Source: Pseudomonadota bacterium
GTDB taxonomy: Bacteria > Pseudomonadota > Gammaproteobacteria > Burkholderiales > Burkholderiaceae_C
Direction of reading: 5' to 3'
Assembly: GCA_030271615.1 (NCBI GenBank)
Contig: JARXKP010000007.1
Span: forward strand, 1 to 32,797
DNA: 32,797 bases
Below the pieces are notes generated by a model, which had not been told where the DNA came from, did no database searches, and was given only the letters and a program-made list of their open reading frames with translations. The number at the start of each line of letters is the position of its first letter. The first letter of the stretch is position 1. Both the position numbers and the translations under genes were made by a program. This document shows, piece by piece, positions 9,698 through 28,692 of this stretch.

Positions 9698-10236
9698 ACT
9701 TGAACGGCGCACGTAAGTTCTTGTCATTATTGAGGAACATCAACCGAAGAACCGTCACTGTTCCCCTGCCTGTTCCCCTACATCGCATACGCTGCAATGA
9801 GACTTCGAACCAAGACCATTCTGCACCGTCCTACGCAAGCCTGCAACGTCTCGTCCCGTCCCGCGCGGTTGTCCTGATGTCGCCATTCGACGACGTGGCC
9901 GAAGGGGCGGTCAGCGCCCCCCTTGCATGGATTCTGCGTTGTGTATCCAGGTGCTTTTGGCAGCAAAGGCGCGCTGATGCCCCGAGCTTGCGCGACGCAT
10001 GGTACGAATGAGTGCCGAAATCTGATGGCGTCGATAGTGCCGAACCCTGCTTCCGAGAAATGCGCGCGCTCTTGCAGTTGTACGAGGAAGGCCGCGCCCA
10101 CGCTTGGTAAGGATTGGCGCAGCGTAGTCATTGGCCTGCGGTTCCGCGTAGGGGTGGCGACGCGCCCGCACAGCATTTGCCACCGTCTCTTCCAAGAGGC
10201 CACAGCGCAGTGATTTGGCGGGCGATGATCCACAGC

Positions 10237-11298
10237 ATGACTGCACGCGACGTGATCATCATTGGCGGCGGACAAGCCGCCCTCTCGGTTGGCTACTTCC
10301 TGCGCCGCACCAAACGCTCGTTCCTGATCCTCGACTCTGAGGACGGGCCCGGCGGGGCCTGGCGCCATGCATGGGAGTCGCTGCGCCTGTTCTCGCCGGC
10401 AACCTGGAGTTCGCTCGCCGGGTGGCTGATGCCGACTACGGCGCAAGGCTTCCCGAGCCGGGATGAAGTCATCGACTATCTGAGCCGATACGAGGAGCGC
10501 TACGCATTGCCCGTTCGCCGGCCCGCGCTTGTCGATTCTGTCGAGGGTTCGAGCGACGGGCTTATCGTGCGGTCGGGTGACAGCGCATGGCAAGCCCAGG
10601 CCGTGGTAAGTGCCACCGGGAACTGGCGTCATCCGCACATCCCCACCTACCCCGGCCGCGTGACTTTCACCGGTTTGCAACTCCATTCGGCCGACTACGT
10701 GAGCGCAACGCCCTTCGCGGGCCGGCGCGTCCTGATCGTGGGCGGCGGCAACTCGGGCGCGCAAATCCTGGCCGAGGTGTCGCAAGTCGCCGAGGCCTCG
10801 TGGGTGACAGAGAAGCCACCCAACTTCCTGCCCGACGACGTGGACGGTCGCTTGCTGTTCGAGCGCGCGACCGAACGCTGGCGCGCCCAACAGGAGGGCC
10901 TGCCCGTCGAGCACTTGCCGGGCGGCTTCGGCGACATCGTGATGGTGCCGCCAGTAGTGGACGCTCGGGCGCGGGGCGTTCTTCAATCGCGCGGCCCGTT
11001 TGCCCGATTCACTCCGACCGGTGTGCAGTGGGCGGATGGCAGCGGGGCATCCTTCGATGCTGTGATCTGGTGCACCGGATTCAGACCAGCGCTGGCGCAC
11101 CTCGCGCCCTTGGGCATCGTCGACGACACAGGACGCGTCGATGTCGAGGGCACCCGAAGCACGGCCGAACCCCGCCTCTGGCTGGTTGGCTACGGGGACT
11201 GGACCGGGATGGCCTCGGCCACGCTGATCGGCGTCATGCGCACGGCGCGCAGCACCGCTCAGGAGATCGACGCCTTCTTGGCGCCGACGATGACCTAA
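10237..11298 (+). CDS. arsO: Flavin-dependent monooxygenase of ars operons (ArsO-like)
   Basis: Two Rossmann motifs: [41 protein letters not shown] and [18 protein letters not shown]; directly upstream of arsR. Confidence 0.8.
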
Positions 11299-11350
11299 GC
11301 CGGGACCGAGGCAGTCTCCAGCCCAGGCGGCCATCGCAAAAAGGCGGTGC

Positions 11351-11379
11351 TTGACCATCACCCATATTTCTACCAAAAT
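11351..11379 (+). promoter_or_regulatory. arsR promoter (TTGACC-N17-CAAAAT) with overlapping ArsR-type inverted repeat TTCTA-N6-TAGAA (11368-11383)
   Basis: Read directly; the -10 overlaps the dyad and lies 6 nt before the arsR ATG. Confidence 0.5.
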
Positions 11380-11385
11380 AGAATC

Positions 11386-11712
11386 ATGGAAGAAAAAGCC
11401 GCCATCGTTTCGCTCGCAGCGCTCGCCCAGCCCATGCGCCTGCGCGTCTTTCGCGCCCTGGTCGGCGCCGGCCCGCAAGGCATGACGCCGGGTGCGCTGT
11501 CCGCGATGCTGGACGTGCCGGCCTCGACGCTGTCTTTCCACCTCAAGGAACTGACCCACTCCGGGCTGGTGACACAGGAGCGCGAAAGCCGCAACCTGAT
11601 TTATCGGCCGGCGATCGATCAGATGAACGACTTGCTCACCTACCTGACCGCTCATTGCTGCCAGGGCGCGGCCTGCGAGATGACCGTCGCCCCTGGCTGC
11701 ACCACCTGCTGA
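11386..11712 (+). CDS. arsR: ArsR/SmtB family arsenic-responsive repressor
   Basis: LAQPMRLRVFRALVGAG...LSAMLDVPASTLSFHLKELTHSGLVTQERESRNLIYRP; C-terminal cysteines HCCQGAAC...CTTC. Confidence 0.92.
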   Translation: MEEKAAIVSLAALAQPMRLRVFRALVGAGPQGMTPGALSAMLDVPASTLSFHLKELTHSGLVTQERESRNLIYRPAIDQMNDLLTYLTAHCCQGAACEMTVAPGCTTC

Positions 11713-11763
11713 GTCCACTTACCGCACCATCGCCGGCAACTCGCCTGCGACAAAGGAACTCCA

Positions 11764-12258
11764 ATGACTGACAAGGTCTACAACGTGCTGTTCGTCTGCA
11801 CGGGCAATTCGGCGCGCTCCATCCTGGCCGAGGGCCTGCTGAACCAATTCGCGCGCGGACGCTTCATTGCGCATTCAGCCGGCAGTCACCCGAGCGGCAC
11901 GGTCAATCCGTTTGCCCTCTCGACGCTGCAAACGCTGCGCATCCCCACCGATGGCTTCCGCAGCAAGAGCTGGGGCGAGTTTGCCGAGGCCGGCGCTCCC
12001 GCGCTCGATTTCGTGTTCACCGTCTGCGACAACGCAGCCGGTGAGGTGTGCCCGGTCTGGCCCGGCCAGCCGATGACCGCCCATTGGGGCGTGCCCGATC
12101 CCGCAGCCTTCGAAGGTACCGACGAAGAGAAGGCTCGCGTCTTCATGGCAACCGCCGTGACGCTGAAACGGCGCATCGAATTGATGCTGTCACTGCCAAT
12201 CAAGAGCCTCGACTCGATGGCGATCCAGCGCGAGATCACCGACATCGGCAAGAGCTGA
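11764..12258 (+). CDS. arsC: Arsenate reductase, low-molecular-weight PTP type
   Basis: VLFVCTGNSARSILAEG P-loop, FRSKSWGEF, VFTVCDNAAGEVCPVWPG, HWGVPDPA. Confidence 0.9.
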   Translation: MTDKVYNVLFVCTGNSARSILAEGLLNQFARGRFIAHSAGSHPSGTVNPFALSTLQTLRIPTDGFRSKSWGEFAEAGAPALDFVFTVCDNAAGEVCPVWPGQPMTAHWGVPDPAAFEGTDEEKARVFMATAVTLKRRIELMLSLPIKSLDSMAIQREITDIGKS

Positions 12259-12264
12259 GCAAAC

Positions 12265-12760
12265 ATGACCACCAACGTCCTCGTCCTCTGCACCCACAAC
12301 TCGGCACGCAGCGTGCTCGGCGAAGGCATGCTCAACGCGCTCGCGACACGTTTGGGCCACGATGTGCGCGGCTACAGCGCCGGCAGTGCGCCGAGCGGCC
12401 GCATCAACCCGTTCGCCCTGGAAGCGCTCGGCAAATGCGGGAATCGACACCAAGGACTTCCGCAGCAAGAGCTGGGACGAATTCACCCAGCCCAACGCGC
12501 CCGAAATGCGCATCGTCATCACGGTGTGCGACAGCGCGGCGAAAGAGACCTGCCCGTACTTCCCCGGCAGCCCGGTGCAGATGCATTGGGGCTACCCCGA
12601 TCCGTCCAACGCGGATGGCGGCGACGCCGGCAAGCACCGGGCCTTCGAGCTGACGCGCCAGGCCATCGGCTACCGCATGCTGCAACTGCTTCAACTCCCG
12701 CTGGACACGATGAGCAACGCCGAGTTGCAGCGCGCCTTGAACCAGATCGCGCAGTCCTGA
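12265..12760 (+). pseudogene. arsC: Second LMW-PTP type arsenate reductase, frameshifted
   Basis: Frame 1: MTTNVLVLCTHNSARSVLGEGMLNAL...INPFALEALGK; frame 2 continues NAGIDTKDFRSKSWDEF...ITVCDSAAKETCPYFPGSPVQMHWGYPDPS. Shift near 12430-12445 (ggcaaatgcgggaatc). Confidence 0.85.
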
Positions 12761-12775
12761 GGGAGCAACTGAGTC

Positions 12776-13483
12776 ATGGTCGATCTGCGCCGCAAACTCA
12801 TCGCCGAGGCACTCGGCACCGCATTGCTGTTGGCCGTTGTGATTGGCTCAGGGATCATGGCTGAACGCCTTTCAGGCGGCAATGTCGCGATCGCCCTGCT
12901 GGCCAACACGATGGCGACCGTGGGCGGCCTGTACATCCTGATAGAGGTCTTCGGACCCGTCAGCGGTGCGCACTTCAATCCGGCCGTCAGTATCGTGATG
13001 GCAATGCGCGGCGAGTTGCCGAAGGCCGCCCTGCTGCCCTACATCGTGGCCCAGCTCGTTGGCGCGATTCTCGGCGCCTGGCTGGCACACGCGATGTTCG
13101 ACATGGCGATCGTGCAGTTCTCGACCCATATGCGCAGCGGTGTCGGCCAATGGATCGCCGAAGCGGTGGCCACCGCAGGCCTGCTGCTGGTCATCCTGCG
13201 CGCGCCGGCAGGCCGTGCTGCCGCGATGGTCGCGAGCTACATCGGTGCGGCCTACTGGTTCACCGCGTCCACGTCGTTCGCCAACCCGGCAGCAGCCTTC
13301 GGTCGCATGTTCTCGGACAGCTTCGCGGGCATCGCACCGGCTAGTGTGACGGGCTTCGTCGCCGCGGAACTCGTCGGCGCCTTGATCGGCCTGGGGATTC
13401 ACCATGCGCTCGGCGTGCCGCGCTCGGGCCATCCGAACATCGTGGAAGCGTCAGGCGAAGTCGGCACCGCCGAGTTGACCTGA
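12776..13483 (+). CDS. aqpS: MIP family aquaglyceroporin (AqpS-like)
   Basis: Two NPA boxes (GAHFNPAVS, TSFANPAAAFGRMFSDSFAGI), about six TM segments, located between arsC genes as in arsR-aqpS-arsC-arsH operons. Confidence 0.85.
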   Translation: MVDLRRKLIAEALGTALLLAVVIGSGIMAERLSGGNVAIALLANTMATVGGLYILIEVFGPVSGAHFNPAVSIVMAMRGELPKAALLPYIVAQLVGAILGAWLAHAMFDMAIVQFSTHMRSGVGQWIAEAVATAGLLLVILRAPAGRAAAMVASYIGAAYWFTASTSFANPAAAFGRMFSDSFAGIAPASVTGFVAAELVGALIGLGIHHALGVPRSGHPNIVEASGEVGTAELT

Positions 13484-13496
13484 GCACGCCGCGTAC

Positions 13497-13979
13497 GTGA
13501 CCCCGGTGGCTGAACCTCTCACCCTGCCCATGCAACCTGAACTCGACCCTGCCGTGCCCATCACGATTTATCACAACCCCGATTGCGGCACTTCTCGCAA
13601 CACGCTGGCGCTGATCCGCAACAGCGGCGTCGAACCCGTGGTGATCGAATACCTGAAGACGCCACCCGGCCGCGCGAAGCTCGTCGAGCTGATCGCCGTG
13701 ATGGGCGTACCGGTACGCAGCGTGCTGCGCCAGAAGGGCACGCCCTACTACGACCTGAAGCTCGGCGAGCCGACTTGGACCGACGACCAGCTCATCGACT
13801 TCATGGTTCAACACCCCATCCTGATGAACCGGCCGATCGTCGTCACGCCGCTGGGTACGCGCCTGTGCCGCCCTTCCGAAGCGGTGCTCGACATCCTGCC
13901 GTCGGCCCAGCTCGCGCCCTTCGCCAAGGAAGACGGCGAGCCGGTCATCGACGCGAAAGGCCGCCGTGTCGCTTCTTGA
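13497..13979 (+). CDS. arsC: Arsenate reductase, glutaredoxin-dependent type
   Basis: [23 protein letters not shown]...VIEYLKTPP...[27 protein letters not shown]. Confidence 0.93.
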
Positions 13980-14688
13980 CTTGAGCCTGCCCAACGTTGA
14001 CACGGCGCTGTTCGACGCACCGACCGGCACGCGCGTGGCCGGGGCCGGCGCCTCGACGCACGCGCCGCGCTTCCTGCTTCTCTACGGTTCTCTGCGCGAA
14101 CGCTCGTACAGCAAACTGCTGACACTCGAAGCGGCGCGTCTGCTCATCGCCATGGGTGGGGAAGTACGGGTGTTCGATCCCGCCGGTCTGCCCCTTCCAG
14201 ACGCAGCGCCGGAAAATCACTCCAAGGTGCAAGAGCTGCGCGAAGCCGCAGCCTGGGCCGAAGGCATGGTCTGGACCTCACCCGAGCGCCATGGGGCAAT
14301 GACCGGCATCATGAAGGCGCAGATCGACTGGATACCTCTGAGCATCGGTGCGGTCCGCCCCACACAGGGCAAGACGCTGGCGGTGATGGAAGTCTCGGGC
14401 GGCTCTCAGTCATTCAACGCCGTCAACCAGCTGCGCGTGCTCGGCCGCTGGATGCGCATGATCACGATCCCGAATCAGTCGTCGGTCGCCAAAGCCTTCC
14501 TGGAATTCGACGAGGCCGGGCGTATGAAGCCGTCGGCGTACTACGAACGCGTGGTCGATGTGATGGAAGAGCTGATGAAGTTCACGTTGCTGACGCGCGA
14601 TGTGGCGCCCTATCTGGTGGACCGCTACAGCGAGCGCAAGGAGAGCGCTGATGAATTGTCCAAGCGCGTCAACCAGCGCGCGATCTGA
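13966..14688 (+). CDS. arsH: ArsH NADPH-dependent FMN reductase / organoarsenical oxidase
   Basis: [23 protein letters not shown]...[22 protein letters not shown]...[29 protein letters not shown] start overlapping arsC. Confidence 0.93.
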
Positions 14689-14700
14689 GAGAGAGACCTG

Positions 14701-14721
14701 AAAGGGGCGTCGCCCCTTTTC
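14701..14721 (+). terminator. Rho-independent terminator after arsH
   Basis: AAAGGGGCGTCGCCCCTTTTC hairpin 12 nt after the arsH stop. Confidence 0.8.
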
Positions 14722-14732
14722 TTCAGCCAACT

Positions 14733-14796
14733 TAGTTGCTATTGACAACGACCCTAGGAATGCCTATCGTGAGCCTACATAGTTGCTATCCACAAC
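14733..14796 (+). promoter_or_regulatory. Promoter (TTGACA-N17-TATCGT) flanked by two GTTG-N7-CAAC operators
   Basis: TAGTTGCTATTGACAAC (14733-14749) and TAGTTGCTATCCACAAC (14780-14796); -35 at 14742-14747, -10 at 14765-14770. Confidence 0.65.
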
Positions 14797-14799
14797 CAC

Positions 14800-15285
14800 A
14801 TGAGCACAAACCTCGATCAGTCACGCGGCCTGCTGCGCGAAGTGGCCCGTATGTACACGCGGGCCCAGCGTGTGGTCGCCGACTGCTGTCGTACCACCAA
14901 CACGCAGTGCCATCTGCTTACCGAGCTGGCACGCACCGGTCCTTTGCCCCTGTCCGAACTCGGCACACGGGTCTCGCTGGAAAAGAGCTGGGTGTCTCGC
15001 GCGGTCGAGGCGATGGTCGAGCGCGGACTGGTGACCAAGGAGGCGAACCCGTCAGACGCAAGGAGCTGGCTCGTCACGCTCACCGATGAAGGCGTCCGCA
15101 CTGTCGATGACCTGAACCAGACGCTCGACGCCCACGCCGAGCAGTTGCTGGGTTCTCTGAATGCGCGCGAACGTGCCGCGGTCGAGAACTCCCTCTTGTT
15201 GCTGATGAAGGCGTTGCGCGAAGACACGGCAGCCAACTGCTGCCTCCCGCCGCCCGAACGAAAGGAAGCCAAATCATGTTGCTGA
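14800..15285 (+). CDS. MarR family transcriptional regulator with Cys-rich termini
   Basis: CHLLTELARTGPLPLSELGTRVSLEKSWVSRAVEAMVERGLVTKEANPSDARSWLVTLTDEG wHTH; ADCCRTTNTQC and ANCC...SCC. Confidence 0.85.
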   Translation: MSTNLDQSRGLLREVARMYTRAQRVVADCCRTTNTQCHLLTELARTGPLPLSELGTRVSLEKSWVSRAVEAMVERGLVTKEANPSDARSWLVTLTDEGVRTVDDLNQTLDAHAEQLLGSLNARERAAVENSLLLLMKALREDTAANCCLPPPERKEAKSCC

Positions 15286-17156
15286 CCACTACCCCAACGC
15301 TTCGCCACGCGACGCAAGCCGACTGGCTTGCCATCGAGGCGCTGCTCGTGGCGAACAAGCTGCCCACGGATGGCGCTAAGGCGCACCTGACCACCTACCT
15401 GCTGGCAATTTCCAACGCCGAAGTCGTCGGCACTGCCGGCGCCGACATCTACGGCCAGATCGCACTGCTGCGCTCGGTCGCGGTCGCACCCGGCCTGCAC
15501 AAGCAAGGCATCGGCAAGTTGTTGCTGGAGAGGCTTCTGCAGGAAGCTCGCCGCCGCGACATCGGCAAGCTGTATCTGCTGACGGTCACAGCGCCCGAGT
15601 ATTTCGCGCAGTACGGATTCAAGCGCGGAAAGATCGAAGACGCACCGCTGGCACTGAAAGCCTCGGCAGAACTCCAGGGCGCATGCCCTGCCTGCGCAGC
15701 CTTCATGTCGCTCACGCTGCAGGAAGCTCCGCGGCGCAATGAAGCTCTGCCGGTGGCGGTGCTCGGCGCCGGTCCGGTCGGCCTGGCTGCGGCGGCAGAA
15801 CTGCTGGAACGCAGCATCCCGTTCGTCATCCTCGAAGCCGGCCAGCGCGTCGGTGCGAACTTGCTCGACTATGGGCACGTGCGCCTGTTCTCGCCTTGGC
15901 AATACAACGTCGATGTCGCGATGGCGAAGCACCTCGCGCGCACGGGCTGGCAGGCTCCGCCCGCAGCGGAGTTGCCGCTCGCAGGCGAGGTGGCCGAGCG
16001 CGTACTGCAGCCCTTCGCTGCGCTGCCGGCAGTAGCCAGTGCGCTGAAGCTCGACACCAAGGTGGTGTCGGTCAGCCGCGAAGGTTTCGACAAGGTGAAA
16101 AGCGCCGGGCGATCCGAAGCGCCGTTCGTCATTCGTGCGATGCAAGCCGGCACGACCATCGAGCTGCGTGTCCGTGCAGTTATCGATGCCACCGGCACCT
16201 GGGGCACACCGAACCCGGTCGGAGCCAGTGGTCTGCAGGCCATCGGCGAAGCCGAGGCGAAGTCGCAGATCTTCTACGGCATTCCCGACATCGTCGGCAG
16301 CGCGCGGTCACGCTTCGAGGGCAAACGAACCTTGGTCGTCGGTGCGGGGCACAGCGCAGCGAACGCATTGCTGTACCTGGCCGAGCTGGCGGGGCAGGCG
16401 CCCGAGACGCGGCTGCTTTGGTCCGTGCGCTCACCATCGCTCACCCGCGTCTTCGGCGGTGGCGAGGCAGACGCCTTGCCGGCGCGCGGCCGACTGGGCT
16501 CATCGCTGAAGGCACTGCGAGACAGCGGCGCGCTGGAATTCATCAGCGGCTTGCGCATTACGGCGATTCAACGCAGCGCAGGCCAACTGACGGTGATCGG
16601 CCTAGACGCCCGTGGCGAAAATGTCACCCTCAACAGCATCGACGAAATCATCTGCGCAACCGGCCAGCGGCCCGACCTGTCGCTGACGAGCGAACTGCGC
16701 GTCAAGCTCGATCCGTGGCTGGAATCCACCGAAGCACTCGGCCCGCTGATCGACCCGAACGTGCACAGCTGCGGCACGGTGCGCCCGCACGGCCACCGCG
16801 AACTCGCCCACCCCGAGCCCGGCCTGTACACGATCGGGGTCAAGAGCTACGGGCGCGCGCCGACCTTCCTGATGGCCACCGGTTTCGAGCAAGCCCGCTC
16901 GGTGGTCGCAGCCATCGCGGGCGACTTCGAGGCCGCTGACCGTGTGGAGTTGAACCTGCCAGTGACCGGCGTCTGCGGCCTCGGTACAGCGGATACCCCG
17001 GATGCCGACAGCAGTTGCTGTGGCGATGACCCGGTGACGAGTACCGTCGCTCTCACTGCAAACTCTCCCAAGGTCGGATGCGGCCCGACCTCCTGCGGCA
17101 CGAAGCCTGTCGCGCCAGTGATCGCCGCGGCGACGACCGCACGCTGCTGCGGCTGA
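15276..17156 (+). CDS. ArsN2-type GNAT acetyltransferase fused to an FAD/NAD(P)-binding flavoprotein with a Cys-rich C-terminal tail
   Basis: Residues about 1-150 GNAT (LLRSVAVAPGLHKQGIGKLLLERLL...LYLLTVTAPEYFAQYGF), then VAVLGAGPVGLAAAAELL and TLVVGAGHSAANALLYLAELA, tail CCG...CGPTSCG...CCG. Confidence 0.85.
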   Translation: MLLTTTPTLRHATQADWLAIEALLVANKLPTDGAKAHLTTYLLAISNAEVVGTAGADIYGQIALLRSVAVAPGLHKQGIGKLLLERLLQEARRRDIGKLYLLTVTAPEYFAQYGFKRGKIEDAPLALKASAELQGACPACAAFMSLTLQEAPRRNEALPVAVLGAGPVGLAAAAELLERSIPFVILEAGQRVGANLLDYGHVRLFSPWQYNVDVAMAKHLARTGWQAPPAAELPLAGEVAERVLQPFAALPAVASALKLDTKVVSVSREGFDKVKSAGRSEAPFVIRAMQAGTTIELRVRAVIDATGTWGTPNPVGASGLQAIGEAEAKSQIFYGIPDIVGSARSRFEGKRTLVVGAGHSAANALLYLAELAGQAPETRLLWSVRSPSLTRVFGGGEADALPARGRLGSSLKALRDSGALEFISGLRITAIQRSAGQLTVIGLDARGENVTLNSIDEIICATGQRPDLSLTSELRVKLDPWLESTEALGPLIDPNVHSCGTVRPHGHRELAHPEPGLYTIGVKSYGRAPTFLMATGFEQARSVVAAIAGDFEAADRVELNLPVTGVCGLGTADTPDADSSCCGDDPVTSTVALTANSPKVGCGPTSCGTKPVAPVIAAATTARCCG

Positions 17157-17157
17157 C

Positions 17158-18381
17158 ATGGCGGGCTCAGGTCATCTGCCTGTGGTCGCTGCGCTGGGCA
17201 CGGCGCAGACGTTGGCGTGGGCCTCGACCTACTACCTGCCGGCGATGCTTGCCGTACCGATGGCGAAGGACATTGGCGTCTCGACGCCGACGGTCTTCGC
17301 AGCCTTCTCGATGGCGCTGATCGTGTCCGCGTTGCTCGGGCCGTATGCAGGACGTTCGATCGACCGGTGGGGCGCGCGGCCAGTGCTCTCAGGCACCAAC
17401 CTCGTCTTCGCGCTGGGCCTCGCCGCGCTGGCGAATGCGCGCGGGCCGGCCGGCCTGTTCGGCGCGTGGGTGATCCTCGGGATCGGGATGGGAAGCGGGC
17501 TCTACGAGGCGGCCTTCTCTGCGCTGGTGCGGCTGTACGGCCGCGACTCGCGCAATGCCATCACCGGCATCACGCTGATCGCCGGGTTCGCCAGCACCAT
17601 CGGCTGGCCACTCTCGAACCTGCTCGAACATCAGGTGGGCTGGCGGGGTGCGTGCTACGCATGGGCCGTACTGCATCTGCTGATCGGGCTGCCCTCGAAC
17701 TTGTCGCTGCCAAGGCCACGCCCTCTCGGCCAGGCGTCCGGCCGTGAGCAAGCTGCCTCCGCCAGCGACGCTGTCCCGCTGACCGGCGCGCGCTCCAAGC
17801 GCGCAGGCGTGCTGCTCGCCACCGTGTTCGCCGCCACTTGGTTCATCAGCACCGCGATGGCGGCGCACTTGCCGCGCCTGCTTCAGTCAACCGGCGCCAC
17901 GCTGGCAACCGCGGTCGCCGTGGGCGCTCTGATCGGGCCGGCGCAAGTAGCCGGACGGTTGCTCGAGTTCGGGTTCCTGCGACGGCTGCATCCATTGTTG
18001 TCCGCGCGTCTGGCGGCCTTGATGCATCCCATCGGCGCTTTCCTGCTGCTGTTCGTCGGCGGGCCGGCCGCCGCCGTCTTCGCGGTGATGCACGGCGCCG
18101 GCAACGGCATCCTGACAATCGCCAACGGCACGCTCCCGCTCGCGCTGTTCGGGACCAAGGGCTATGGGCAACGCCAAGGGATGCTGATGGTTCCTGCGCG
18201 GCTGGCTCAAGCATCCTCGCCCTGGCTGTTCGGCTTGTGTCTCGACCAGTGGGGCTCGGGGGCACTGTGGGTGTCGGGAGCGGTCGGCTTGCTGGTCTTC
18301 GGGGCGCTGTTCGCAATGCCCAAGCCGCCCGACAAACCTGAGTCTGATGCGTGCCCGAAACATCCTTCGTCATCGTCTTGA
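17158..18381 (+). CDS. MFS transporter of the ars locus
   Basis: About 407 aa, multi-TM, starts 1 nt after the fusion-gene stop; MFS loop GPYAGRSIDRWGARPVL. Confidence 0.8.
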   Translation: MAGSGHLPVVAALGTAQTLAWASTYYLPAMLAVPMAKDIGVSTPTVFAAFSMALIVSALLGPYAGRSIDRWGARPVLSGTNLVFALGLAALANARGPAGLFGAWVILGIGMGSGLYEAAFSALVRLYGRDSRNAITGITLIAGFASTIGWPLSNLLEHQVGWRGACYAWAVLHLLIGLPSNLSLPRPRPLGQASGREQAASASDAVPLTGARSKRAGVLLATVFAATWFISTAMAAHLPRLLQSTGATLATAVAVGALIGPAQVAGRLLEFGFLRRLHPLLSARLAALMHPIGAFLLLFVGGPAAAVFAVMHGAGNGILTIANGTLPLALFGTKGYGQRQGMLMVPARLAQASSPWLFGLCLDQWGSGALWVSGAVGLLVFGALFAMPKPPDKPESDACPKHPSSSS

Positions 18382-19666: not shown

Positions 19667-20053
19667 TTAGGTTTCCGCGTCAGTCTCGGGACGAATCAGG
19701 CTGAGCAATTGGGGCAGGCGTTTGGAGATGGCGCGCTCTGCGTCACGCTCGATCGCGCGGTAGACCAACAAAACGCGTTCCCCGGTAGGAGTCAACTGCG
19801 CGCCGCCCCCCGCAACGCCACCCCGTTGCTTTAGCACCAGCGGCTCGATGAAGTCCGCGTTCATCGCCGCCACCAGCGACCAAACGCGTTGGTAGCTCAT
19901 GCCCAGTCGCCGGCCGGCCTCGGCCAGTGAGCCCGTCTCGGCAACGCTTTGCAGCACGTCCGCCTTGCCGGGGCCGATCGCCACGGCATGCTTGATTTGC
20001 ACCCTGAAGCGGGTTTTCTCGTGGAGCGGCGAGGCATTGAGGGTTGGCTTCAT
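19667..20053 (-). CDS. modE: ModE-like molybdate-responsive regulator (LysR-type wHTH; lacks obvious MOP domains)
   Basis: IGPGKADVLQSVAETGSLAEAGRRLGMSYQRVWSLVAAMNADFIEPLVLKQRGGVAGGGAQLTPTGERVL; start MKPTLNASP at 20053. Confidence 0.85.
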   Translation of the reverse strand: MKPTLNASPLHEKTRFRVQIKHAVAIGPGKADVLQSVAETGSLAEAGRRLGMSYQRVWSLVAAMNADFIEPLVLKQRGGVAGGGAQLTPTGERVLLVYRAIERDAERAISKRLPQLLSLIRPETDAET

Positions 20054-20095
20054 GGTGCGAGGAATGTATCCCGGGGCCATCCGGTGAAGAGCAGG

Positions 20096-20121
20096 TCGAT
20101 ATACTTGCCAGGCGATATCGA
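20096..20121. promoter_or_regulatory. Candidate ModE operator between modE and modA
   Basis: TCGATAT-N12-ATATCGA perfect 7-bp dyad in the divergent intergenic region. Confidence 0.55.
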
Positions 20122-20165
20122 AACCGGAAGATAACGCTTTTGCGCTCACCCCGAAAAGACATCAC

Positions 20166-20957
20166 ATGCACAAGTTACGTCGCCGTTTGCTGACCAAGAT
20201 CGCCACCGGACTTCTTGCGAGCGCTTCGCTGTCGCCGGTCGCCGCACAGTCCGGTCCCACGGTTGCCGCGGCGTCCGACCTGAAGTTCGCGCTCGAGGAA
20301 GTCGTTGCGAAGTTCGAGCGCGAAACGGGCAACAAGGTGCGCCTGGTGTTCGGCTCCTCGGGCAACTTCTACTCGCAGATTCTGCAGGGGGCGCCGTTCC
20401 AGATGTACATGTCGGCCGACGAAGACTTCGTCTTCAAGCTGGCCGATGCCGGCAAGGCCGTCGATCGCGGGCGTTTGTACGCGCTGGGGCGCATCGGCAT
20501 CATGGTGCCGACCGGCTCGCCGCTCAAAGCGGACGGCGAGCTCAAGGACCTGGCTGCAGCGCTGAAGGATGGACGGCTGCAGAAGTTCGCCATCGCCAAC
20601 CCCGAGCACGCACCCTACGGCGCACGCGCGAAGGAAGCGCTGCAACACGCCGGCCTGTGGGAGGCCATCCAGCCCAAGCTGGTGCTCGGCGAGAACATTT
20701 CCCAGACCGCGCAGTTCGCCACCTCGGGCTCGACCCAGGGCGGTGTGATTGCGCTGTCCCTGGCCAAGGCCCAGTCGGTCGCCAAACTCGGCAGCTTTGC
20801 GCTGATCCCCAACGACTGGCACGAACCGCTCAAACAGCGCATGGTGCTGTTGAAGGATGCTCCGCCGTCGCTGCGCGCGTTCTACGCCTATATCGCCACG
20901 CCCGCAGCGCAGGACATCATGGTCCGCTACGGATTCGCGATGCCGGCGGGCCAGTAG
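20166..20957 (+). CDS. modA: Molybdate ABC transporter substrate-binding protein
   Basis: Signal peptide, then VAAASDLKFALEEVVAKFERETGNKVRLVFGSSGNFYSQILQGAPFQMYMSADEDFV. Confidence 0.93.
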   Translation: MHKLRRRLLTKIATGLLASASLSPVAAQSGPTVAAASDLKFALEEVVAKFERETGNKVRLVFGSSGNFYSQILQGAPFQMYMSADEDFVFKLADAGKAVDRGRLYALGRIGIMVPTGSPLKADGELKDLAAALKDGRLQKFAIANPEHAPYGARAKEALQHAGLWEAIQPKLVLGENISQTAQFATSGSTQGGVIALSLAKAQSVAKLGSFALIPNDWHEPLKQRMVLLKDAPPSLRAFYAYIATPAAQDIMVRYGFAMPAGQ

Positions 20958-20973
20958 GCGAGGCGGCAGGTCG

Positions 20974-21639
20974 ATGGACTGGCAGGCACTGAGGTTGTCG
21001 CTCGAACTGGCGTCGATCACGCTGGTTGTGCTGCTGCCGCCAGGCCTGTGGCTCGCCCGCTGGCTAGCCTCCACCAGCTTCGCGGGCAAAGGCTGGATCG
21101 AGGCGCTTGTGGTACTGCCGCTGGTGCTGCCGCCGACGGTGCTCGGCTATTACCTGCTGGTGTCGCTCGGGGGCGCGTCCCCACTCGGCCGCTGGGTACA
21201 CGACATCTTCGGCATCCGCCTCACCTTCAACTTTTTCGGCTTGCTGCTCGCTTCCGTTGCCTTCAACGTGCCGTTCCTGGTGCAGCCCGTACAGCGTGCG
21301 TTCGAGGCCATCCCGCGCCACCTGTCGGAGGCTGCGGCGGTCAGCGGTCTGAGTACCTGGCAGACCTTCTGGCGCGTCGAGCTGCCGCTCGCCTGGCCGG
21401 GCGTGCTATCGGCCATGGTGCTGACCTTTGTGCACACTCTCGGCGAGTTCGGCGTGGTGTTGATGATCGGCGGCAGCATCCCCGGCGAGACGAAAACGAT
21501 CGCCATTTCGATCTACGACCGCGTGCAGGCGTTCGACCTGGAGAGTGCCAACCGCATGGCACTCCTGTTGCTCGTTTTCTCGCTCGCCGCCGTGGGCGCG
21601 TCGTTCTTCGCCTCCGCGCGGCTGGCGCTCCGGCGATGA
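20974..21639 (+). CDS. modB: Molybdate ABC transporter permease
   Basis: VVLPLVLPPTVLGYYLLVSLGG, VRAFEAIP...EAAAVSGLSTWQTFWRVELPLAWPGVLSAMVLTFVHTLGEFGVVLMIGGSIPGET. Confidence 0.93.
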   Translation: MDWQALRLSLELASITLVVLLPPGLWLARWLASTSFAGKGWIEALVVLPLVLPPTVLGYYLLVSLGGASPLGRWVHDIFGIRLTFNFFGLLLASVAFNVPFLVQPVQRAFEAIPRHLSEAAAVSGLSTWQTFWRVELPLAWPGVLSAMVLTFVHTLGEFGVVLMIGGSIPGETKTIAISIYDRVQAFDLESANRMALLLLVFSLAAVGASFFASARLALRR

Positions 21640-22784
21640 CGACGCACGAACGGAATGCACCCGCCGCAGGCACGGCGCTGGTCGTCGAAGTCGAACAGAC
21701 GCACCCGATGCCGCTGGCCGGTGCATTCCGCTGCGAACCCGACGAATTGCTCGCGCTGGTCGGCCCGTCGGGCGCTGGCAAGACCTCCATGCTGCGAGTC
21801 CTCGCCGGCCTCATGCGGCCCGAGCGGGGGCACATCATCGTCGGCGGCAAGGTCTGGTGCGACACGGCAAAGGGCCTCTTCGTGCCACCGAAGCAGCGGC
21901 ATGTGGGCTTGGTGTTCCAGAACTACGCGTTGATGCCGCACCTGAGCGCTCTGGACAACGTCGCGCTGTCCCTGCTGCACCTGCCTCGCGGCGAACGTCT
22001 GTCGATGGCCCGGCACTGGCTCGACCATGTGCGGATGACGTCGGAACTGCAGTCCAGACGTCCGGCCAACTTGTCCGGCGGCGAGCAGCAGCGCGTCGCC
22101 GTGGCTCGTGCGCTGGCGCGCCAACCGCGCCTGCTGCTGCTCGACGAACCATTCTCCGCCGTCGACCAGATGAACCGGCAGGGCCTGTATCGGCTGCTCG
22201 CCGATCTGCGGCGCGAGCTGGCCATTCCCATCGTGCTGGTCACCCATGATCTGAACGAAGCCCGCATGCTCGCAGACAGGCTCGTCGTGATGGATGCAGG
22301 CGAAGTGCTGCAGCAGGGCACGCCGGAAAACATCCACCGCGCGCCGCGCAACGCGCGGGTGGCCGACCTGGTCGGCATCCACAACCGCTTCGAGGGGCAG
22401 TGGCTGGGTGCAACCGAACAGCCAGGGCACGGGCTGCTGCGATGGTCGCCCGAGGGCTGCACTGACGGCCACGGGCCAACACTGCAGGTGCGAGACAAAG
22501 GCAAGATTCCGGCAGGCCAGGCGGTCACCTGGATGATTCCGGGCGATGGCATCACGCTGTCGCACCAGCCTCTAGCTCGCGAGGGCGAGTTCGCAGCGGA
22601 AGTGGTCGAGGCCCGCCATCTCGGCGAGATCACGCTTGCGACCTTGACGCTAACCCGGGTGAACGGCGTGCACCTGCGAATCACCTTGTCCGGTTCGCAA
22701 CGTCAGCGACTCGTGGTCGGGACCAACTTGTGTGTGCAGCTCGATCTGGACCTCGTGCACGTGATGCCCTTGCGGGAGCGCTGA
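21636..22784 (+). CDS. modC: Molybdate ABC transporter ATP-binding protein
   Basis: Walker A GPSGAGKTS, LSGGEQQRVAVARAL, LLLLDEPFSAVD; C-terminal TOBE-like region; ATGA overlap with modB. Confidence 0.92.
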   Translation: MTTHERNAPAAGTALVVEVEQTHPMPLAGAFRCEPDELLALVGPSGAGKTSMLRVLAGLMRPERGHIIVGGKVWCDTAKGLFVPPKQRHVGLVFQNYALMPHLSALDNVALSLLHLPRGERLSMARHWLDHVRMTSELQSRRPANLSGGEQQRVAVARALARQPRLLLLDEPFSAVDQMNRQGLYRLLADLRRELAIPIVLVTHDLNEARMLADRLVVMDAGEVLQQGTPENIHRAPRNARVADLVGIHNRFEGQWLGATEQPGHGLLRWSPEGCTDGHGPTLQVRDKGKIPAGQAVTWMIPGDGITLSHQPLAREGEFAAEVVEARHLGEITLATLTLTRVNGVHLRITLSGSQRQRLVVGTNLCVQLDLDLVHVMPLRER

Positions 22785-24610: not shown

Positions 24611-27094
24611 TCAGGCGTACCGGCGTTCCTTGAGCGACACCGTGGCCTTGTAGTCCTCGACCGTGCCGACGCGGCGGATGCTGCCCCAGGTGCCCTTGTA
24701 GTAGGGCACCACGCTGCGATCCACCCAGTCGGTCGTCACGTTGCCGGCGATACCGTTGAAGTAACCGAACATCATGAAGGTCTGGCCGGCCTTGATCGAC
24801 TTCGACGGGTACACCATCGCATAGCTGCTGCCGAAGTCATTGAAGATCTCGACCACGTCGCCCGGGTTTGCGCCGACGGTCTTGGCGTCGTCGGGGTTCA
24901 TCTCCAGAAATGACATCGGGTAGCGGTCGCGCACCGCCGCGTCGTACTGGTTGTGATAAGCCGTCTGCCACACCTCGTTGGCGCGACCGTTGTTGACCCA
25001 GAACTTGTGCTTCTCCTTCTGGCCTGCCACCGGCTTCGGCAAACCGTTCCACGGCGCCGGCTTGAACGAGGCCTTGCCGTCCTTGGTGTCGAACTTGCCA
25101 TCGGTGTAGTGCATCGCGGTGCCGATCATCTTGCCGTCCTTGACCTCCTTGATCGGCAACTGCACGCCGTTGTTGCCGGCCGTGCGCAGCAGCGCATAGG
25201 TGGCCAGGTAGCCGGTGTCGCCGCCTTGGCTGTCGATGGGGCCCACACCCGGCCTGCCCGCACGGCGGAAGCCGTCGTTGAAGGCGTCTTCCTCGGTCTT
25301 CCAGTCGAAGCCGTCGAAGCGCGCGGCCATCTCGGCGTTGCCGGCCTGCGCGTACAGCGCCTTCAGCGTGTTCGCGATGTCAGCGGCAATCAGGCAGTCC
25401 GGCTTCGCAGACCCCGGCGGGTCCATGAATTTCTCCGACAGGCGCAGCCGGCGTTCGCCGTTCATCGAGGTCAGGTTCATCTCCCCTGGATGCGCGGCCG
25501 GCAGCAGCATGTGCGCCGCCTCGGCGAGCTTGGTCGGGTACAGGTTGATGCCGACGACGAACATCCCGCCCTTGTTTTTGCAGGCGTCGTAGATCACATC
25601 GACCATCTGCGCCACGTTGGCACCCTTGGCCTTGCTCATCGCCTCGCGCACGATGTTCGCGCGCTTCATCAGCACCTCACGGTGCTGTTCGGCATTGAGG
25701 GTGCTCTGGAACGGGTTGGTGCCCCAGATCGTGTACATCAGCCCTCGACCCTGGATCACTTCCTGGTCGATGTAGATCTTCTTGTCGCCCGGGTACGGCG
25801 GCCGGGTGTAGCCCTCCTGATGGCCGCCCATACGAACAACGCCAGTGCCACGTCGTCCGACGTTCTGCGTCGCGAGCACGAGGCTGACGAGCGAGCTCTG
25901 GATGACGTAGTTGTCATTGCCCCAGATGATGCCTTTTTCGTAGGCGTGCATCGTGCGCGGGCGGTGGCCCGACGCCTTGGTCTTGTAGGCCCAGTCGGCG
26001 GCTTGCTTGATCTTGGCGACGGGGATGCCGGTGATCTTCGAGCCCTCTTCGAGCGTCATGCGGTTGGTCTTCACCGCATCGTCATAGCCGCTGGTGAACT
26101 TGGCGATGAAGTCCTTGTCCTGCCAGCCCTGATCGACGACGTAGGTGAACAGCGTATTGAACAGCGCCGTGTCGGTGCCAGGCTCGATGTCGAGGTGCAG
26201 CACGTTCTCCTTGCCGGCCACCTGCTCGCTGATCGCCACGGTTGCGGTGCGGCGTGGGTCGACGATGATGATCTTGGCGGCAGCCGCCGTCTCGCCGGGG
26301 AACCACTTTTTCTTCTTGTCGACGGTGCCACCGTTCAGGTTGGGTACCCAGTGGTTCAGGAAGTAGTTGGTCTGCGTCTCGTAGGAGTTGCAACCCGTCG
26401 CGACGATGCAGTCCGCGACCTCGGCATCTTCGTAGCTGTTGTTCAGCTCACCGACGCCCATGTCGCGCGTGGCGTGGCATTCAGAGTTGTACGCGGGCCG
26501 GTTGTGGATGCGCACCATCGGCGTCTTCAACGCGCTGAACATCAGCTTGCCAGTGCCCCAGGTGTTCTCGAAACCGCCACCCGCGCCGCCGTGGTCGAAG
26601 CAATCAAACAGCGCGCCGCTCGGGCCGTCAGTGTCGAGAATCTTCTTCGTCACGCCGGCATAGATGGCGAGCGCCTCGGTCCAGTTGGTGTCCAGCCATT
26701 CGCTGCCGCGAAAGATGCGCGGATTCTTCAGCCGCTCCTTGCCGGCGCCATCCGGCGAATACATGTACGAGCCCATGCGTCCGCCGCGCGTGGACGACAG
26801 GCCGCCGTTGACCACGCACTCCTTGTCCGGCAGCACCATGATGTTCCAGCGCTTGCCGGCACGGTCGGTGATGGTGTTGGTCATCGCCTGCGTCATCGTC
26901 ACGGCGAATGGCGGGAGCTGCTTGCGGAAGTCCAGGCCGAGCGCGTTGTCGCCGGGCGCACGGCCGCCTTCGCGGTTCGCATCCCACTTGTACACGTGAT
27001 ATCCACATCCAACGATGCAGAAGTGGCAGGTCAGGTTGGTCTTCTGCGCGTCCTTGGTCGGCAACGCGATGCGATCTTTGATGTTCGTGCTCAT
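24611..27094 (-). CDS. aioA: Arsenite oxidase large (molybdopterin) subunit
   Basis: 827 aa; [23 protein letters not shown] (Cys ligands of 3Fe-4S cluster), [39 protein letters not shown]; preceded by a Rieske subunit gene. Confidence 0.97.
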
Positions 27095-27106
27095 GGTGGT
27101 GGCTCC

Positions 27107-27661
27107 TTACAGCACGTTGGATTGACGGCCGTACAGCAGGCCGTTGATGGCCACCGCGCGCACGCTGTCGGTCTTGGCGTCGTATTCCAGCATCACCTGC
27201 GGCAGGTCTTCGGTCGCCTGCCCGCACACCATCTGGCCGTTGTTCTCGGGGTCGAAGATCGAGAAGTGGCAACCGCACTTGAAGGTCTTCGTGCCGGCCT
27301 CGTAAGACACCGGGCAGCCCATGTGCGTACACATGCCGCTGTAGGCCACGATGTCCTTGTTCGGGCCAACGCCGCCGGGCACGGGCGCGCCCATGCGGAT
27401 GGCCCAGCACAGCGAGCTGGCATCCGGATAGTTGAAAGCGACAGCTTGATTGACCGGCATGCCGCCGGCCTTGCCGACTGCGAGCTTCGGGTATGCGAGC
27501 GTCGTGCCACCGGCGGGTGCGCCGGCCGGGCCAGCCGCTTGAGCGGCACCAGCGGGCAACAGCGAGGCACTGGCAACGGCCGCAGCGCTGCCACTGGACA
27601 CCATGAAGATGCGCCGACTGACCTTGGCGCTGTTCGTTGAGCTGGCTTCCGACTTGTCCAT
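27107..27661 (-). CDS. aioB: Arsenite oxidase small (Rieske) subunit with Tat signal
   Basis: [21 protein letters not shown] Tat-like signal; [10 protein letters not shown]...[23 protein letters not shown] Rieske motifs; GGAGACAAG SD before ATG. Confidence 0.96.
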
Positions 27662-27697
27662 CTTGTCTCCGGGTTGTTTGAGCAAACGCCTCAACAA

Positions 27698-27713
27698 CGC
27701 AAGCCAAGTGCCA
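27698..27713 (-). promoter_or_regulatory. Sigma-54 promoter of aioBA
   Basis: Minus strand TGGCACTTGGCTTGCG (TGGCAC-N5-TTGC), 37 nt upstream of the aioB ATG. Confidence 0.85.
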
Positions 27714-27796
27714 GCAGACAACCTCAATGAATTCAACGACTTAACAAATCCAGCGCTCGGGAATGTCCGGATGGCGTAACCATCCGCCGCTCGGTA

Positions 27797-27814
27797 CGTT
27801 ACGAATAAGTAACG
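27797..27814. promoter_or_regulatory. Palindromic site, candidate AioR upstream activating sequence
   Basis: CGTTAC-GAATAA-GTAACG, 6-bp perfect arms, 84 bp upstream of the -24 box. Confidence 0.6.
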
Positions 27815-27828
27815 CCGATGGATGAGTC

Positions 27829-28692
27829 ATGCAGCGAAGAGCGGTGCTAAAACTGGCAATCGGCACGGCCGCGAACATCGGCGCGGCGGCGAGCGAGGCG
27901 CAGGCCACGGGCGGGGAACGCATTCGCATCGGACTGACCGCCGTCATCCTTGCCGACCAGGTCGCCTTCCTCTCTCGTTGGGGCCAGTACCTGTCCGCGC
28001 AGACGAACCGCCCGGTCTCGTTCATTGCGCGCGAGTCGTACCAGAGCATCCTCGATCTGATGTTCGGTGGGCAGCTCGAAGCGGCCTGGATTTGCGGCTA
28101 CCCGTATGTGCTGCACCGATCACGCCTACAACTGCTGCCGATGCCGATCTTCCAGGGCAAGCCGCTTTACCAGTCGTACTTGATTCGCCCACGCGGCGCA
28201 ACGGACGGCATCACCGGATGGGCCGATCTCAAGGGAAAGGTACTGGCCTATTCGGACCCGTTGTCCAACTCGGGCTGGTTGGTCCCCCAAGCACAGCTTC
28301 GGGCCGCTGGCGTGGCACCGCGAGACCTGCGTCGAGGCTTCTTCACACACGGCCACCGCAACGTCGCCGAAGCGGTGGCGGCGCGACTGGCGCAGGCGGG
28401 CTGCATCGACGGATATGTATGGGAGACGATGCGCCGCCAGAAGATGGCAGCCGTGGACCAGACCGAGGTCATCTGGAAATCGCCGCTTTACGCCTTTCCA
28501 CCCCTGGTCACCCGCGACGGCGTCTCCGAAGACATCGTCGCCAGTCTGCGAACGGCACTGGCAGGCATGACGCAGGACAAGGAAGGTCGCGGCCTGCTGG
28601 ACGCGCTGAACCTCGACGGGTTCAGGCATGAGCCGCCGAAGCTGTTCGAGTCGATCGCGTTGCTCGCCGCAGCCCAGGACCGCGCGGGCTGA
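27829..28692 (+). CDS. aioX: PhnD-like periplasmic As(III)-sensing binding protein
   Basis: ERIRIGLTAVILADQVAFLSRWGQYLSAQTNRPVSFIARESYQSILDLMFGGQLEAAWICGYPYV; first gene of an X-S-R operon divergent from aioBA. Confidence 0.9.
   Translation: MQRRAVLKLAIGTAANIGAAASEAQATGGERIRIGLTAVILADQVAFLSRWGQYLSAQTNRPVSFIARESYQSILDLMFGGQLEAAWICGYPYVLHRSRLQLLPMPIFQGKPLYQSYLIRPRGATDGITGWADLKGKVLAYSDPLSNSGWLVPQAQLRAAGVAPRDLRRGFFTHGHRNVAEAVAARLAQAGCIDGYVWETMRRQKMAAVDQTEVIWKSPLYAFPPLVTRDGVSEDIVASLRTALAGMTQDKEGRGLLDALNLDGFRHEPPKLFESIALLAAAQDRAG

Follow-up and report, generated by a model that had tools for sequence, protein, structure and literature searches.

A predicted organoarsenical-detoxifying protein that joins an ArsN2 domain to a flavoprotein with a cysteine-rich tail, encoded in a marR-linked transcription unit

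What does an ArsN2 acetyltransferase contribute when it is encoded as one end of a flavoprotein? The ArsN2 clade was named by Nadar et al. in 2019; ArsN1 acetylates arsinothricin, a glutamate mimic, while ArsN2 is closer to the glutamate N-acetyltransferases and has no settled substrate (PMC6465285). The literature that we searched contained no demonstrated ArsN2 substrate, and a 2026 study doubted the arsenic role of one ArsN2 (PMC13163355). In the stretch of bacterial DNA analysed here (32,797 nucleotides, called the window below), a single gene encodes an ArsN2 domain, an FAD/NAD(P)-binding flavoprotein and a cysteine-rich tail (Table 1). From its sequence and setting, we think that its product is a bifunctional organoarsenical-detoxifying enzyme in a dedicated marR–fusion–MFS transcription unit, a reading to which we assign a probability of roughly 0.55.

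Table 1. Positions in the window of the fusion gene, its parts, its control region and the adjoining ars genes
Feature	Position	Strand	Evidence or remark
arsO, separate flavin monooxygenase	10114..11298	+	NF040505, 559 bits against a cut-off of 425
Upstream ars genes: arsR, two low-molecular-weight arsC, aquaglyceroporin, glutaredoxin-type arsC, arsH	11347..14688	+	profile matches
Operator-like palindrome 1, GTTGCTATTGACAAC, overlapping the -35 TTGACA	14735..14749	.	GTTG-N7-CAAC match
Sigma-70-like promoter TTGACA-17-TATCGT of the marR–fusion–MFS unit	14742..14770	+	consensus scan, 10/12; weak evidence alone
Operator-like palindrome 2, GTTGCTATCCACAAC, 47 bp downstream of palindrome 1	14782..14796	.	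GTTG-N7-CAAC match
MarR-family regulator with C29-C30, C37, C147-C148 and C160-C161	14800..15285	+	PF01047, E 8.1e-14
ArsN2–flavoprotein–Cys-tail fusion gene	15276..17156	+	single ORF, 626 aa
ArsN2 GNAT domain, residues 17-146	15324..15713	+	NF040501, 133 bits against a cut-off of 125, E 4.9e-39 (NCBIfam); dN/dS 0.11
Flavoprotein domain (FAD/NAD(P)-binding), residues 158-567, invariant C499 and C567	15747..16976	+	PF13738; Foldseek; Cys in 41/41
Cys-rich disordered tail, residues 568-626, CCG ... CGPTSCG ... CCG	16977..17153	+	pLDDT; Cys conservation
ArsK-like MFS exporter	17158..18381	+	PF07690; NF033733, 239.5 bits, below the ArsK cut-off of 400

The first-pass annotation of this locus had proposed one open reading frame composed of an ArsN2-type GNAT domain, a flavoprotein with two GxGxxG motifs and a tail with vicinal cysteines, next to an MFS exporter and within an ars context. 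The reading frame, the tail, the ArsK-like exporter and the ars setting are all as described, and the two domain assignments hold against curated profiles, the flavoprotein through a Pyr_redox_3 match at residues 162-473 that scores above the Pfam gathering threshold. Its wording was slightly loose for the dinucleotide motifs: GAGPVG (residues 164-169) is a genuine GxGxxG, whereas GAGHSA (residues 356-361) is a GxGxxA. Together with an ATGQRP motif at residues 461-466, these provide the FAD- and NAD(P)H-binding motifs that characterize ArsV. Like known ArsN2 proteins, the acetyltransferase part is encoded in an ars operon, with arsR, arsC, aquaglyceroporin and arsH genes upstream that keep an identical order in relatives. 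ArsN2 proteins are typically free-standing and about 133-150 aa long, but here the domain sits inside a protein of 626 aa, so we class the product as an ArsN2 domain-containing protein.

The join has a traceable history. A scan of GTDB species contigs matched 41 loci of other species, and ArsN2 and flavoprotein are joined in 27 of these (one of them, L037, has its GNAT part divided over two ORFs); the possibility that both parts are separate in all close homologs, which had been named as a refutation of the fusion, is thereby removed. The best match, from Rhizobacter sp. Root404, is 87% identical along the 626 aa, end to end. In the family of the window, 32 of 401 genomes have a match and 21 have the joined form, as counted from the query ranges of the matches. 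Among 399 genomes of the order, the window's own aside, the fusion was not found and its two parts occur only separately. Of 321 genomes of the class, 21 have an ArsN2 above its cut-off and 2 have the flavoprotein. Among plasmids, no relative covered 80% of the protein; only the flavoprotein part was seen there, not the fusion. The fusion is missing from fourteen congeneric genomes, while most genes of the operon are 80-95% identical to those of Rhizobacter sp. Root404, which would fit either horizontal gain or a misbinned contig.

Pairwise comparison with the Root404 protein gave dN/dS values of 0.09 for the flavoprotein domain and, as tabulated, a similarly low one for the GNAT domain, so both enzymes are under purifying selection. 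A tree of 72 flavoprotein domains places every one of the 34 joined proteins in one clade of 42 rows (support 100/99), together with 8 unfused rows; outside it only unfused proteins are found, in Streptomyces, Rhodococcus, Planococcus, Staphylococcus, Rhizobiaceae and other Burkholderiales. Strict monophyly of the fused proteins is rejected (p-AU 2.6e-6), with unfused members nested in the clade. The fewest changes of fusion state on this tree number 8, most simply one gain followed by about seven losses of the GNAT part rather than many gains. In the corresponding tree of ArsN2 domains, the joined ones mostly cluster apart from the free-standing ones; support is weaker here, and some long branches intrude.

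About seven losses within the fused clade suggest that the GNAT domain is dispensable for the work of the flavoprotein, which acts alone in most lineages, and this is what would be expected if the fusion served co-expression only, that is, if two independent resistance enzymes for different compounds had been joined for equal dosage, without a shared substrate or channelling. ArsN2 is also a promiscuous fusion partner, a point that would equally favour such an explanation: ArsN2-ArsC, glutaredoxin-type ArsC-ArsN2 and ArsN2-ArsN1 joins occur at further loci (L117, L128, L115, L005, L075). Throughout a large clade the fusion has nevertheless persisted, and purifying selection acts on both of its domains, although a shared substrate is not thereby required. 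We regard mere co-expression as a serious possibility, with the odds somewhat against it. One further chimera bears on the substrate of the ArsN2 part. At an equivalent operon position in Roseateles sp. YR242 (L056, 7953-9068), a single ORF of 371 aa consists of ArsN2 (140 bits), a short flavoprotein stub and ArsN1b (257 bits), both acetyltransferases scoring above their respective cut-offs. As the arsinothricin acetyltransferase ArsN1b here takes the place of the flavoprotein behind ArsN2, this swap points to a connection of ArsN2 with arsenical amino acids.

The cysteine-rich tail carries 6 Cys in 59 residues compared with 5 in the other 567 (positions 137, 140, 460, 499 and 567), which makes 11 in total and a binomial p of 1.4e-5. 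The relevant codons are those of C567 at 16974, the pair CC581-582 at 17016, C602 and C607, and the terminal CCG with C624-C625 at 17145-17153. In two structure predictions the tail has a pLDDT of about 30. An unconserved tail would have spoken against a function, but in 22 fused proteins the cysteines of the two vicinal pairs are conserved to 95-100% while the remaining tail residues average 27%, and the tail dN/dS relative to Rhizobacter sp. Root404 is 0.17; by this conservation pattern the tail appears to be a set of thiols on a disordered tether. The tail had been presented as the third part of a tripartite fusion. Stand-alone flavoprotein homologs of other phyla also carry it, so it is better assigned to the flavoprotein than to the fusion. 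In many flavoprotein tails (at L004, L059, L063, L104 and other loci) a second motif, CCxxDxxxKxxGxxGCGC, is found, which may be a separate small metalloid-binding module.

The variability of the tail could mean that it is a mere sink for arsenite or metal, or a chaperone towards the MFS exporter, and takes no part in catalysis. Indeed, the number and spacing of the cysteines vary greatly: among 74 distinct proteins the part that follows TGVC spans 12-123 aa (median 57) and has a median of 6 Cys, a CC is present in 72 of the 74 tails, and 57 terminate in CC or in CC plus one residue. What makes a role outside catalysis rather unlikely is that the core residues C499 and C567 are invariant together with the tail pair (C581 invariant, C582 in 40 of the 41 aligned proteins), which suggests a single thiol pathway.

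For the flavoprotein itself, the nearest folds of the predicted structure in Foldseek are NADPH/FAD-dependent N-hydroxylating monooxygenases and the bacillithiol disulphide reductase YpdA. The class B (N-hydroxylating) flavin monooxygenases head the list with TM-scores of 0.5-0.63, modest values that reflect the poor modelling of the tail and of residues 477-501; the disorder extends over about residues 476-501, and the segment around C499 has a pLDDT below 50 in both predictions. YpdA reaches a target-normalised TM-score of 0.79. This last match, and the CCG at the end of the tail, could be taken to mean that the protein does not oxidise arsenicals but is a reductase or thiol-disulphide enzyme, whose tail cysteines form a redox relay like that of thioredoxin reductase. 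We consider a reductase improbable, as the flavin core lacks a Cys pair, an exporter adjoins the gene and the closest long structural matches are monooxygenases. The flavoprotein is most likely an NADPH/FAD oxidase of trivalent organoarsenicals that resembles ArsV. According to papers that cite the original work (doi 10.1111/1462-2920.15488, 10.1111/1462-2920.15817), ArsV is a flavin monooxygenase that oxidises trivalent organoarsenicals and Sb(III) and is accompanied by the MFS exporters ArsW or ArsK; methylarsenite is given as a substrate and ArsW as the partner exporter (PMC10080717). An MFS gene likewise lies directly 3' of the flavoprotein here and in most homologous loci, and the unfused flavoprotein is present in soil bacteria of several phyla. 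As cofactor, habitat and neighbour are those of ArsV, we think it likely that the flavoprotein is ArsV itself, judged by these features rather than by sequence; the NCBIfam profile search gave no match to an ArsV model. An assignment to ArsO was rejected at 35.7 bits, far below the NF040505 cut-off. That two separate ORFs were merely united by an assembly error or frameshift can be dismissed: the window is one of the 381 contigs of a genome that is 79% complete, but many independent assemblies, some of them complete genomes, show the identical join.

The regulatory setting refines the earlier notion of a fusion beside an MFS exporter, since the adjacency is part of a marR–fusion–MFS unit with its own predicted promoter. 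The start ATG of the fusion gene, preceded by the Shine-Dalgarno-like AAAGGAAG, overlaps the marR stop by 10 bp, and 1 nt separates the fusion stop from the MFS start, which suggests translational coupling of the three genes. Two GTTG-N7-CAAC sequences are the only ones in the window, and they bracket the promoter-like site between arsH and marR. Each of the 34 marR homologs compared has one or more such sites in the 130 bp upstream of it, often two about 47 bp apart, and two more distant marR genes beside ArsN2-ArsN1 double acetyltransferases (L005, L075) are likewise preceded by one. In the encoded MarR proteins, C29-C30 and C37 are present in 32-34 and C147-C148 in 30-31 of the 34 homologs, and C160-C161 is C-terminal. 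A putative private promoter, conserved palindromes and a Cys-rich MarR together argue that these genes probably form a regulon of their own that senses an arsenical, and the regulator is possibly an arsenical sensor from outside the ArsR family. Among flavoprotein homologs the usual order is a regulator (arsR), the flavoprotein and an MFS gene, in nearly all contexts examined. In Ensifer adhaerens E-60, for example, a GNAT gene (ArsN1-like, below cut-off) is followed by arsR, the flavoprotein and a bona fide arsK (513 bits against a cut-off of 400). A hairpin, AAAGGGGCGTCGCCCCTTT, is located at 14701-14720 on the 3' side of arsH; it is absent from the consensus scan output and is perhaps a terminator.

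Elsewhere in the window, the minus strand encodes the large and small subunits of arsenite oxidase (TIGR02693, TIGR02694) within 24611-28692, and a divergent PhnD-like periplasmic binding protein at 27829-28692 may be AioX. Between the ars genes and the arsenite oxidase, at 19667-22784, are a modE-like regulator and a molybdate transporter (modA, modB and an ABC ATPase), which could plausibly supply the cofactor metal of the molybdenum-containing arsenite oxidase.

The observed anatomy, conservation, selection, operon structure and operator conservation can be combined into a tentative mechanism for the bifunctional detoxifying enzyme, whose chemical steps, like any direct channelling between the domains, we infer. 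A trivalent organoarsenical, such as methylarsenite or an arsenical amino acid like reduced hydroxyarsinothricin (AST-OH), would release the Cys-rich MarR from the two palindromes. The vicinal pairs of the tail would capture R-As(III) and pass it on to the core thiols C499 and C567, much as the MerA cysteine pair handles Hg(II), and the NADPH/FAD domain would turn As(III) into As(V), a much less toxic form, as published for ArsV. On arsenicals that bear an amino group, the ArsN2 domain would acetylate this group and thus end the glutamate mimicry, and the MFS protein would pump out the product. Trivalent AST-OH combines trivalent arsenic and a free α-amino group in one molecule (PMC8552651), and an oxidase joined to an acetyltransferase would suit it for this reason. 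In its boldest form, which we put forward as a speculation and would not bet on, a single polypeptide uses its tail to capture an antibiotic that is a trivalent arsenical amino acid (reduced AST-OH or a related compound), oxidises the arsenic and acetylates the amine, and this two-hit inactivator is governed by a MarR that senses the same compound and is served by a dedicated exporter. If true, ArsN2 would have its first substrate. ArsN2 genes are widespread in ars operons without a known substrate, and the fusion and the ArsN1b swap point to amino-bearing organoarsenicals, a question that one clone makes directly testable. The Cys-rich MarR with its conserved operator-like sites could moreover represent an arsenical sensor of a new type, which biosensors might exploit.

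Compared with known systems, the component parts all belong to familiar types. What appears to be undescribed in the literature searched is the join itself, the pattern of the tail and the Cys-rich MarR. That search, with most subscription journals outside its coverage, retrieved no description of an ArsN2-flavoprotein fusion. Other ars functions are likewise united in one polypeptide in the known ArsN-ArsC, ArsN-ArsD and AqpS-ArsC fusions (PMC6205960) and in ArsRM (PMC10190100), but a flavoprotein partner is not reported in the literature examined. With ArsN2 (NF040501) the protein shares a GNAT domain above the curated cut-off and the ars operon location, but most known members stand alone and have about 150 aa, whereas here the domain is the N-terminal fifth of the chain. 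The likeness to ArsV, one of description and not of sequence, comprises the FAD/NADPH flavoprotein, the spread among soil bacteria and the MFS partner in ars operons; the parts of the ArsV literature examined mention no ArsN2 fusion. ArsO is also an FAD/NAD(P) flavoprotein of ars operons, but the true ArsO of the window is a separate protein, to which the fusion has about 25% identity over half its length. The downstream exporter matches the ArsK profile over its full length, though below the cut-off, and is 32% identical to ArsK of E. adhaerens E-60. MerA, finally, is a flavoprotein with a flexible C-terminal Cys pair (here C624-C625), which in MerA delivers the metal to the active site (PMC4500099). 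The active-site CXXXXC and the dimerisation domain of MerA are absent from the fusion, and its tail is much longer. By analogy, arsenic would be handed from the tail to the flavin in parallel with the MerA arm, and the long Cys-rich tail is a possible counterpart, in arsenic biology, of this metal-delivery arm.
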